DNA of 64,000 nt from Candidatus Gastranaerophilales bacterium (GTDB lineage: Bacteria; Cyanobacteriota; Vampirovibrionia; Gastranaerophilales; Gastranaerophilaceae): assembly GCA_944322945.1 (NCBI GenBank), contig CALUQN010000009.1, forward strand, positions 1 to 64,000, given 5' to 3'. Below, piece after piece: positions 20,909 through 24,066 of this stretch; positions within the stretch are counted from its first letter, which is position 1; every line of letters begins with the position of its first letter. The position numbers and the translations under genes were made by a program. The notes below the pieces were generated by a model. It did no database searches and was not told where the DNA came from. It worked only from the letters and a program-made list of their open reading frames with translations.

Positions 20909-21952
20909 TTATTTGTTTAAACTTGCCGCATCTTTTACCCGGAGTGCAAAATACGGTTTGTCTTTTTCTATCAGGAATAATACAAAAGTATCATCACAGA
21001 AAAAATCCCTCGGTTCTTCAACCACAGGAAGCGGCATTGACATTTTCATAATTAAGGCTGCTTCACTTTTTAATTCTACACCTTTGTTATTCATATTGAA
21101 CTCAATAGATTGTAGTGCTGCGTCAATGGTAAAATCTGTATTTTTAATTGTTTTTCCTGCAAGTTCTGTGTACTCGTGGTCTGTTTTGAATTTTAAATTA
21201 GGAACTTTAAATTTATCTTTTTTATTAAATCTTGTGTCACCTTTATACTCTTTTTGTTTTGTTAAGACTTCATTGTACAGTGTTTCAAAAGATTTGTTGT
21301 CATCAGTTCTGTAAAGAATAATTTTGTCATTATCCTTAGTGAAAAGTTTTACGGCAAAATCATTGTCAGAATTGTAGAATAAAACTTGGACATTATCTCT
21401 CAATTGCGCTTTGCTCTTCCTGTCTATACCAAAATATTGAACTTTTGTTCTGTTACTTCCGAATTTTTCTTTTTTTAATTCATCAAAAGCATTGATAAAT
21501 TCAAAGTCTTTTTTGAGCATTGCATAAACGAGATATTTTTCACCATCCCAGTTCAAACCTTTCAAGAGTTCGCTGGTTTCATTGAATTTTTGTTGCAATG
21601 CAGTTTCAATAACAGATTTTAAGTATGGTGTCATAACCCCGTGAGCGGTGTAGTATGAATTTTCAGAAATCAAATCTTTACTGAAGTTTTGTTTGTTTAA
21701 TTCATCTGCAAGTGGAGGATTGCCGTTAACAAAGTTAACCGGACCTCTTGTAATTTCATCCATCAAAACATTCCATACAAGTTCAAAAGTTCCGACCCAG
21801 ACTTTATTTTTAGCCTGTGATTCAGAAGCAAATGTCGGCACTGTAACAAGTTCAGCTGGTTGTGCCGGAGTTGTTTTTTTTAAAAAAGGAAATGCGAATG
21901 CTGATGTACTAACCATTAGCATTGCTAAAATTGTTAAAAACGTCTTTTTCAT
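20909..21952 (-). CDS. Secreted serpin-like protein (divergent, probably non-inhibitory)
   Basis: The 347-aa protein has a clear signal peptide (MKKTFLTILAMLMVSTSAFA, cleavage after residue 20). I do not recognise a named family, but the C-terminal half follows the serpin order: a strand VPNLKFKTDHEYTEL, a segment DAALQSIEFNMNNKGVEL where serpins have HKAxIxVNEEGTEA, a ~20-residue exposed stretch with IMKMSMPLPVV where the reactive loop would be, and FFCDDTFVLFLIEKDKPYF where serpins have FxADHPFLFFI. The hinge that should be small residues (P12-P9) reads LKSEA, and the shutter His is absent, so inhibitory loop insertion is unlikely. The gene follows 21954-22328 with only 1 nt between stop and start; GAGGAG lies upstream. 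The fold call needs a profile or structure check. Confidence 0.55.
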   Translation of the reverse strand: MKKTFLTILAMLMVSTSAFAFPFLKKTTPAQPAELVTVPTFASESQAKNKVWVGTFELVWNVLMDEITRGPVNFVNGNPPLADELNKQNFSKDLISENSYYTAHGVMTPYLKSVIETALQQKFNETSELLKGLNWDGEKYLVYAMLKKDFEFINAFDELKKEKFGSNRTKVQYFGIDRKSKAQLRDNVQVLFYNSDNDFAVKLFTKDNDKIILYRTDDNKSFETLYNEVLTKQKEYKGDTRFNKKDKFKVPNLKFKTDHEYTELAGKTIKNTDFTIDAALQSIEFNMNNKGVELKSEAALIMKMSMPLPVVEEPRDFFCDDTFVLFLIEKDKPYFALRVKDAASLNK

Positions 21953-21953
21953 A

Positions 21954-22328
21954 TCAGTTTTTCTCCTCTATATTCAAAAATCTTAAAAAGCCTTTCCAGA
22001 ATCCTTTTTGCGTGTGAGCATGTGGAATAGGAGCAGATTTATAGTATCTGTCATAGCTTTTAATAATATTATCCGGTAAAGAATCACCTTTTTCAAGGGT
22101 AAATGAAATAAATTCAATATAATCATCCTGTTCATCTTTATATAAGGCATCGCGCTTTCGCAAATCTTCATCTGCTTCGTAATGGACTAATGCGTGATAT
22201 GCCGCATGAATACTTCTGTCCTCACTGTCCGGAGGAAACTGCAAGAGAGCCTCGCGGACGCACATGTCGCCAATGCGGACTTTTCTTACAAGTTCCGCTA
22301 CTTTTACTCTGTCTTCAAATTGAGTCAT
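21954..22328 (-). CDS. Hypothetical cytosolic protein
   Basis: A 124-aa acidic, helical protein without signal peptide or membrane span; I recognise no family. Notable are RKVRIGDMCVREALLQFPPD near the N-terminus, the His/Ala-rich HAAYHALVHYEAD in the middle and a Trp/Phe/Gly C-terminal end (GFWKGFLRFLNIEEKN). It has no ribosome site of its own and begins 2 nt after the end of the BlaI-type gene, so it is probably translationally coupled to it. It is followed by the secreted serpin-like gene. The three genes form one leftward transcription unit whose joint purpose is unclear. Confidence 0.75.
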   Translation of the reverse strand: MTQFEDRVKVAELVRKVRIGDMCVREALLQFPPDSEDRSIHAAYHALVHYEADEDLRKRDALYKDEQDDYIEFISFTLEKGDSLPDNIIKSYDRYYKSAPIPHAHTQKGFWKGFLRFLNIEEKN

Positions 22329-22330
22329 TA

Positions 22331-22675
22331 CTACTTAACTAAAAATTCGCTGCATTCGTTTTCTATAAACTTCATCATATCAACGTAATTTCCGTTGAAA
22401 AATTGTTCAGCAGTTTCTTTGATTGCATCCATAGCCATTTCGCTGCGGCTCATGGTTGCTTTGTAGAAGAATTTTTTCCCAACCTTATAGCGGACAAGAA
22501 TACTTTTTACAGTTAATCTGTCCATAACCGTTTTAATAGTTGTATAAGCTCGCTCTATGCCGTTTTTTGATAAATCGTCCACTATATCCTGAATAGAAAT
22601 ATCCATGTCTTCTTTTATTTCTGTTAAATTCCAAAACGAATTTAAGATATCAATTTCGAGCTTTCCGCACGCCAT
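22331..22675 (-). CDS. BlaI/MecI-family winged-helix repressor, solo
   Basis: A 114-aa regulator. I choose ATG 22675 (MACGKLE) because GAGGA lies 8 nt before it; the TTG at 22690 is upstream of that signal's proper spacing. The winged helix spans about residues 3-75 with the family marks ILNSFWN, AYTTIKTVMDRL (recognition helix) and the wing VRYKVGKKFFYKAT; the C-terminal dimerisation helix ends FIENECSEFLVK. In classical systems a BlaR1-type sensor protease next door inactivates the repressor; none is present. It may regulate this operon or a distant target. Confidence 0.88.
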   Translation of the reverse strand: MACGKLEIDILNSFWNLTEIKEDMDISIQDIVDDLSKNGIERAYTTIKTVMDRLTVKSILVRYKVGKKFFYKATMSRSEMAMDAIKETAEQFFNGNYVDMMKFIENECSEFLVK

Positions 22676-22858
22676 ACGTTTATTCCTCAACTTTCCGTGT
22701 TTTTCTGTGCTTATCTGACAATATTTATCGAATTTGTGTTTGCAGGGGATAACATACCGTGATTACCAAAATCTTTTAAAGACCACTTATGTAATTCCTT
22801 ACTAACATTGTAACATAAAAAAATTATTTGGCAAGAAAAGTATAGCAAAAGTTTACAT

Positions 22859-24007
22859 TTAGTCAATATAAATTAAGTCAGGTTCTTTCTTAAAGTTACT
22901 TTTTTTCTGTCTTAGCTTTGCATTTTTCTTTTTAGTTTTTTTTGAGACTTTTTTGTAGGCGTTATCAATAGAAATTTTAGAAAGCGCCTTTCCGTAGCGT
23001 CTGTCGTAGAAGGTCAGCCAGAATTTTCTGTTTATATTATCAACGGCAAAAGATATTTGACCAGCGACTTTGTCTCCCGGTTTAATCTGTCGGAACATTA
23101 TTTTCGTGTCCCCGAAAACGGACGGTCTGAAAATTTTGTTGTAATCGTTTACAAGAGCCATGTCTAAACCTGAAAAGGTTTTGTCAGACATATTCGAAAT
23201 CAAAATAGTCAGGGTAATTGTATTCACTTCTCCAAAGGGGTCTTCCTCGTGTTTGATGTCGCTTATGTGGATATCAAGCCCTGGGTAAAAAAGTTCGTGC
23301 TGCATCAATGCAGTGTCTTTATATACCGGCAATGGTACGGTCGTGTTTATTTTTACTTTAATTTCGTCACCTGGTGCAATCAGTACGTCGTGCCCTTTTC
23401 TGAGCAGTGCCATCCCTAGCCCTATAGCGCCGCCGACAGCAGCGCCGCCAAGGACAGTATAACCTTGAGATGCTATGGCAGCCTCAAGCCCAAGCCAGTT
23501 GAGTGCCATAAACCCGCCGGCAACTCCGCCTAAGGCAGTGTAACCTACGTCTTGCGCCATAATTTTTGTTGTTTCAACGATAGGATGAAGTTTTGTGGAC
23601 ATTTTACCTTCAATTGGGATTTCGCGTCCATCCGGTGTCATCAGATAATCAAAATCAAGTTCTATCCAGCCGGAGCGTCCGAGTTTTTTAGGGTCTTCAA
23701 TTTTGACAATTTTACCGTGGGCTATGGTGCCTTTCGGGAGAATTACGCCGTCATCTCCGTAAACTTCCGAGGTGACTTCCGCAAAAAATTCGTCACCTTC
23801 CACTGAAAGATTTGAATCAAGCACCTGCGATACCGTCATTTCTATAACATCTTTTTTCTCAAGCTTTTCAACCTCACCTGTAAACAGTTCTTTTTGCTGC
23901 TCTGACCAGGTGTTTGTTTCTTCAACACCGCCGTGCAGGGTTTCTGCCAATACTGTTTGGTTGAATAAAAATATGCTTAACAAAAATAACGCGATAATCT
24001 TTTTCAT
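22859..24007 (-). CDS. Secreted protein with glycine-zipper segment, VirB10/TrbI-like C-terminal context
   Basis: A 382-aa protein with signal peptide from ATG 24007 (MKKIIALFLLSIFLFNQTVLA, cleavage near residue 21). I recognise no exact family. Its middle part, VILPKGTIAHGKIVKIEDPK followed by GRSGWIELDFDYL and a glycine-rich segment (GGVAGGFMALNW..., GGAAVGGAIGLGMALL) and then IAPGDEIKVKINTTVPLP, follows the order seen in secreted bacterial proteins related to the VirB10/TrbI barrel. The C-terminus is lysine-rich (KKTKKKNAKLRQKK), ending LIYID. No ribosome site precedes the start. TATAAT ends 6 nt upstream, so the mRNA is probably leaderless. An envelope-spanning or membrane-inserting role is possible but unproven. 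Confidence 0.7.
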   Translation of the reverse strand: MKKIIALFLLSIFLFNQTVLAETLHGGVEETNTWSEQQKELFTGEVEKLEKKDVIEMTVSQVLDSNLSVEGDEFFAEVTSEVYGDDGVILPKGTIAHGKIVKIEDPKKLGRSGWIELDFDYLMTPDGREIPIEGKMSTKLHPIVETTKIMAQDVGYTALGGVAGGFMALNWLGLEAAIASQGYTVLGGAAVGGAIGLGMALLRKGHDVLIAPGDEIKVKINTTVPLPVYKDTALMQHELFYPGLDIHISDIKHEEDPFGEVNTITLTILISNMSDKTFSGLDMALVNDYNKIFRPSVFGDTKIMFRQIKPGDKVAGQISFAVDNINRKFWLTFYDRRYGKALSKISIDNAYKKVSKKTKKKNAKLRQKKSNFKKEPDLIYID

Positions 24008-24013
24008 ACTGGT

Positions 24014-24019
24014 ATTATA
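24014..24019 (-). promoter_or_regulatory. Predicted -10 box, leaderless start of the 24007 gene
   Basis: TATAAT on the minus strand, then ACCAGT and the ATG at 24007. A weak TTTTTA lies 17 nt upstream as a possible -35. The divergent gene starting at 24067 shares this short region. Confidence 0.5.
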
Positions 24020-24066
24020 CAACATTCATGGTAAAATAAAAATGTTCAACAAATAAGGAGAAAGTG

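Follow-up and report, generated by a model that had tools for sequence, protein, structure and literature searches.

The serpin fold is used without classical inhibition by ovalbumin, HSP47, angiotensinogen and the hormone-binding globulins, and in several of these non-inhibitory eukaryotic serpins the hinge departs from the inhibitory consensus. The published hinge motif of inhibitory serpins, spanning P17-P9, is ExGTEAAAA, with Thr or Ser at P14 and small residues at P12-P9 (PMC8233489). As for the second type of system relevant here, ECF sigma factors fused to membrane parts have been described, and proteolysis is believed to activate them (PMC8999054). In the window analysed here, a 64,000-nucleotide stretch from a 2.1 Mb genome of the Gastranaerophilaceae (non-photosynthetic Cyanobacteriota), we find a gene whose 347-aa product is a divergent, reduced and very distant serpin relative.

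The gene, its product and its distribution

The coding sequence and its signal peptide are placed as follows:

20909-21952, minus strand: serpin-like coding sequence, 347 aa, stop codon included in the span (ATG at 21952, stop ending at 20909)
21893-21952, minus strand: Sec signal peptide, residues 1-20, MKKTFLTILAMLMVSTSAFA, read from the sequence by eye

Every motif quoted for the protein is present in the translation of this open reading frame. The original prediction called the protein secreted, and our by-eye reading agrees: residues 1-20 have the look of a Sec-type signal peptide, and an N-terminal hydrophobic segment is found in most relatives too. The 347-aa protein thus appears to be exported.

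The gene is close to universal and mostly single-copy in Gastranaerophilaceae, being present in 111 of 146 genomes. In a sample of the phylum, 119 of 292 genomes carry it; all 119 belong to Gastranaerophilaceae, and none lies outside that family within the phylum. The gene is tandemly duplicated in one Gastranaerophilaceae genome (G084, L100:187-2287), and another relative (L104:382-2028) has an acidic N-terminal extension of ~200 residues ahead of the serpin-like domain. A phage, plasmid or viral origin of the gene was searched for, with zero matches.

Homology to serpins

The 347-aa protein alone matches no family in Pfam or NCBIfam and falls below the Pfam Serpin cut-off. A phmmer search of the whole PDB with this single sequence gives one match at E<=10, which is a serpin (4p0f, E=0.26, residues 266-335). 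When each of the 63 family members in our alignment A1 is compared with Pfam by hmmscan, Serpin is found in 25 at E<=0.01 (best 6.3e-8), and any other Pfam family is matched by at most one member. A single relative, G026, exceeds the curated Serpin cut-off (28.6 versus 27 bits). Searching the phylum with PF00079 yields weak matches in 30 Gastranaerophilaceae genomes (E 7e-7 to 9e-4); where a genome was searched in both ways, these matches fall on the serpin-like gene, with a single exception.

Against the PDB, the A1 profile retrieves fragments of alpha-1-antitrypsin only (E 0.27), and a profile that also includes the Clostridial members described below (A4) matches 34 sequences, all 34 of them serpins (best E 0.033). 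Taken singly these E-values are weak; it is their agreement that argues for serpin homology. Shuffled and reversed sequences served as decoys for HMM searches in both directions: the serpin HMM matched 37 of 75 family members versus 12 of 1575 decoys, and the family HMM matched 18 of 62 serpins versus 5 of 1302 decoys. The matches between family and serpins occupy two separate collinear regions, residues ~157-260 and 264-330. An hhalign comparison of the family with a profile of 30 cyanobacterial serpins is collinear but weak (z about 1.75 versus column shuffles); it was dropped as proof, given that ~10 of 199 column shuffles reached or exceeded its score.

Near the C-terminus we looked for the serpin signature, which we take to be PROSITE PS00284. 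It is matched strictly by 7 of the 63 members and with one mismatch by 45, and strict matches occur in 12 of 12600 shuffled sequences; the 347-aa protein has one mismatch, Asp at position 5. The serpin-like order of C-terminal landmarks, on which the original prediction was built, exceeds chance, as seen in the PDB, Pfam and decoy-HMM searches and in the signature counts. The family almost certainly belongs to the serpin superfamily by homology.

Predicted fold

An AlphaFold2 model of the protein, built with 63 sequences, has a pLDDT of 88.9 and a pTM of 0.81. In a Foldseek comparison with the PDB, the best 50 matches are all serpins (E from 7e-10, probability 1.00), at TM values of about 0.4-0.55. 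Profile searches, the HMM tests in both directions and the Foldseek matches of the model indicate serpins and nothing else, which favours the serpin-like fold proposed earlier. For a control, we modelled L196, a canonical serpin encoded on a viral-collection contig, with 7 sequences (pLDDT 88.2); its TM against PDB serpins is about 0.8-0.94, well above that of the 347-aa model. Over the C-terminal part, the secondary-structure strings of the two models all but coincide, with a 13-residue strand, a 3-residue turn, a 13-residue strand, a loop of ~19 residues, and strands of 6 and 7 residues. Counterparts of helices hA, hD, hE and hI and of one of the strands s1A/s2A are missing in the 347-aa model, which depicts the protein as a reduced serpin core. 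The elements listed here are our own assignments from DSSP strings and alignment:

21497-21628, minus strand: helix-F / strand s3A equivalent, residues 109-152 (hhalign; DSSP H109-123, E140-152)
21092-21130, minus strand: strand s5A equivalent, residues 275-287 (DSSP; position and length as in the control s5A)
21044-21082, minus strand: hinge, P15 Gly291 to P3, GVELKSEAALIMK, replacing GTEAAAA... (predicted strand 291-303)
21005-21043, minus strand: reactive-centre-loop equivalent, residues 304-316, variable, of low confidence (pLDDT <50 at 302-314)
20972-21004, minus strand: s4B signature FFCDDTFVLFL, one mismatch to the serpin signature (signature comparison)
20936-20956, minus strand: s5B equivalent PYFALRV, residues 333-339 (alignment, DSSP, profile search)

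In the hhalign alignment, residues 109-152 correspond to the serpin stretch ...INxWV..T.GKI....LVNAIYFKG.W. A locked latent serpin with its hinge permanently in sheet A was also considered, prompted by the predicted strand 291-303 and by cleaved and latent forms among the Foldseek matches. That idea was withdrawn: the hinge of the canonical control is likewise modelled as inserted, and cleaved or latent forms were its first matches as well, so the modelled insertion is uninformative.

Hinge and reactive loop

With the conserved Gly291 taken as P15, the hinge of the family reads N-x-G-V-K-L-K-S-E-A and replaces the inhibitory ExGTEAAAA family-wide. The consensus is Asn at P17, Gly at P15, Val/Ala/Gly at P14, Lys/Glu at P13, Leu at P12, Lys at P11, Ser/Asn at P10, Glu at P9 and Ala at P8. 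P15 Gly is retained in 62 of 63 members. P14, which is Thr or Ser in 60 of 61 canonical serpins, is Val in 43 members, Ala in 10, Gly in 9 and Ile in 1, and is Thr or Ser in 0 of 63. No member (0/63) has small residues throughout P12-P9; Glu297 (P9) is invariant in A1, and Lys295 is invariant or nearly so. The departure from the inhibitory type that the original prediction noted at P12-P8 of this protein (LKSEA) is thus conserved across its relatives. Given that the inhibitory hinge is lost, suicide trapping of proteases is unlikely, and classical serpin trapping is probably absent in the family.

The distance from the hinge Gly to the signature Phe is 30-33 in 58 of 63 members, versus 30-31 in most canonical serpins. 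The loop after the hinge varies across the family, and KMSMP recurs within the lineage of the 347-aa protein; such a recurring loop does not look like fast-changing bait. Along the hinge, every other residue (V, L, S, A, L, M) is hydrophobic or small, and P13, P11 and P9 carry charge, a pattern by which insertion into sheet A is still possible; the altered hinge would be compatible with slow or non-canonical inhibition. The earlier suggestion of a non-inhibitory protein is supported at the level of sequence.

The BlaI operon and other genomic settings

In the lineage of the 347-aa protein, the gene is the last of a compact operon with the order BlaI-type repressor, 124-aa protein, serpin-like gene (19 loci, most with intergenic gaps of about 0-16 nt). 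At the present locus, the upstream features are:

21954-22328, minus strand: conserved 124-aa partner, assigned to no known family; cotranscription with the serpin-like gene is likely (1-nt gap)
22331-22690, minus strand: BlaI/MecI-type repressor (PF03965, E 8.6e-17; the sole PF03965 match in the genome)
22799-22834, minus strand: conserved promoter-like region before blaI, TTGCCA-N16-TACAAT
22799-22813, minus strand: inverted repeat TTAC-N7-GTAA, conserved and lying across the blaI -10, differing from the classical TACA/TGTA operator

The 124-aa partner gives nothing significant against Pfam, PHROGs or the PDB. The promoter core TTACAATGTTAGTA recurs in nearly all loci of the lineage that have upstream sequence. 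Classical BlaI dyads (TACA-N5-8-TGTA) number 0 at the operon, and their count in the window is not above chance. Control of BlaI by a BlaR1-type protein was considered and rejected, as no M56/BlaR1 peptidase was found in the genome. Upstream of the operon, a secreted 388-aa protein (22859-24025) is conserved; it has only a sub-threshold DUF4352 match and nothing significant in the PDB.

A second lineage is represented by 29 loci; there, the serpin-like gene lies upstream of a gene for a TPR-SLT lytic transglycosylase. Cotranscription of the two is uncertain because the latter starts about 125-181 nt downstream. The BlaI linkage and the transglycosylase linkage are each lineage-specific.

Clostridial relatives and sigma-factor fusions

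The family profile was also searched against 291 genomes of Clostridia (the class of L086). Matches were found in 10 of them, one being to a canonical serpin (L160), which is matched weakly (E 6.5e-4) and stands outside the family itself. Most Clostridial members are free proteins anchored in the membrane, and some carry DUF3221 or Big_14 as an extra domain. Five relatives in three genomes (L147=L083, L151, L152, L153 and L161; G347, G596 and G515) are single-ORF fusions, in which an ECF sigma factor (Sigma70_r2 and r4, over cut-off) is followed by a hydrophobic segment/transmembrane helix and the serpin-like domain. No stop codon separates the parts, so the serpin-like domain is translated together with the sigma factor. 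The five form one clade (support 100/99), and no zinc-finger anti-sigma domain was found between sigma and membrane in them. The literature we searched holds no mention of a serpin-like exodomain on an ECF sigma factor. The fusion is a feature of the Clostridial relatives; the 347-aa protein and the other Gastranaerophilaceae members are free proteins. In a further genome (G492), two short frames with a stop (L159 and L163) represent a serpin-like gene remnant, apparently a pseudogene.

The original prediction held that a secreted, non-inhibitory serpin fold would be unusual in a Gram-negative gut bacterium. Serpins in general are not rare in gut bacteria or in Cyanobacteriota: PF00079 matches above the cut-off occur in 119 of the 291 Clostridia genomes sampled and, in the phylum sample, in 46 of 244. 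What is unusual is the hinge-altered family and its sigma-factor fusions.

Proposed function and alternatives

Our main reading, to which we assign a probability of roughly 0.55, is that of an exported, reduced serpin-superfamily protein which has lost the inhibitory hinge, is most likely non-trapping, and serves as a sensing or regulatory module of the cell envelope. Its computed basis consists of the serpin homology, core fold, loop length, hinge loss, signal peptide, BlaI operon in one lineage and Clostridial fusions. The sensing or regulatory role, taken by itself, is tentative and draws on the sigma fusions and the BlaI operon. In such a role, the serpin-like domain would act in the envelope, where a conserved surface or loop might bind a ligand or protease. 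In the Clostridial fusions, binding would change or release the membrane-tethered ECF sigma factor; in Gastranaerophilaceae, the protein would belong to an envelope response under the orphan BlaI-type repressor. Only a small part of the family, one clade in three genomes, consists of fusions, which limits this sensor reading.

The protein, as a non-inhibitory serpin fold, could instead act in the envelope as a structural element, carrier or chaperone, as in HSP47 and the hormone-binding serpins, with no part in signalling and with the sigma fusions as a side branch. The near-universal, mostly single-copy presence of the gene in Gastranaerophilaceae, the lytic transglycosylase neighbour in the second lineage and the conservation of residues outside the loop would all suit this idea; however, membrane-bound sigma factors usually have sensors as exodomains, and the BlaI operon suggests that expression is regulated. 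We regard it as a minor contender. Somewhat doubtful as well is a working periplasmic or extracellular protease inhibitor with an unusual hinge, in which the KMSMPLP loop is bait and the strand inserts into sheet A. Such an inhibitor could account for the conserved loop length, the alternation of buried and exposed hinge residues, the P15 Gly of 62/63 members and the hinge modelled as a strand by AlphaFold2, but it must contend with the lack of P14 Thr/Ser and of small P12-P9 in 63 of 63 members and with the near-invariant Glu297 and Lys295; the modelled strand carries no weight, the canonical control giving the same.

The most elaborate form of the sensor reading is that the serpin fold has been recruited as a bacterial envelope sensor, with loop cleavage or ligand binding causing a conformational change that releases the ECF sigma factor, and with the free Gastranaerophilaceae proteins likewise feeding a BlaI-controlled envelope response; in this complete form we consider it improbable. 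Finally, a convergent or accidental resemblance, in which another fold carries a few similar motifs, would fit the lack of a significant single-sequence match, the TM of only 0.4-0.55 and the weak hhalign result against a narrow serpin profile, but is very improbable given that independent methods name serpins and no other fold, with matches that fall in the two collinear regions given above.

Significance

The superfamily is known; its reduced, hinge-altered branch and the sigma fusions are undescribed in the libraries and literature searched. No Pfam or NCBIfam model names the family, even though its gene is near-universal in a family of common gut bacteria. The serpin superfamily thereby gains a reduced form that lacks the inhibitory hinge, which offers a small model of what the serpin fold keeps once inhibition is no longer selected. 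As far as the literature found shows, the sigma fusions would place a serpin-like domain in a setting not described before, and a role for the serpin conformational change in bacteria becomes directly testable. If the sensor reading is true, the serpin fold has been reused in bacteria for cell-envelope signalling.

Comparison with known systems

Compared with the serpin superfamily (PF00079; miropin and cyanobacterial serpins), the family has the same loop length, the same core sheets in the model and a near-match to the serpin signature. The modelled order of elements is that of canonical serpins: s3A, B-C sheets, s6A, s5A, hinge, loop, s4B and s5B. Unlike canonical serpins, the 347-aa protein is shorter and without the inhibitory hinge, and the family lies below the Pfam cut-off except for one relative. 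In our own alignment, the equivalents of the serpin shutter residues Asn186 and His334 are Tyr143 and Glu/Gln281. No sequence closeness to ovalbumin, HSP47, angiotensinogen or the hormone-binding globulins was found, and the family differs from such non-inhibitory eukaryotic serpins in kingdom, size and genomic setting (general knowledge and PMC8233489). With the tethered single-polypeptide ECF sigma factors (ECF243 IutY; SCO4117/ECF52; PMC8999054), the Clostridial relatives share the combination, within a single ORF, of ECF regions 2 and 4 with a transmembrane helix and an exodomain; unlike in those factors, the exodomain is serpin-like rather than carbohydrate-binding or siderophore-related.
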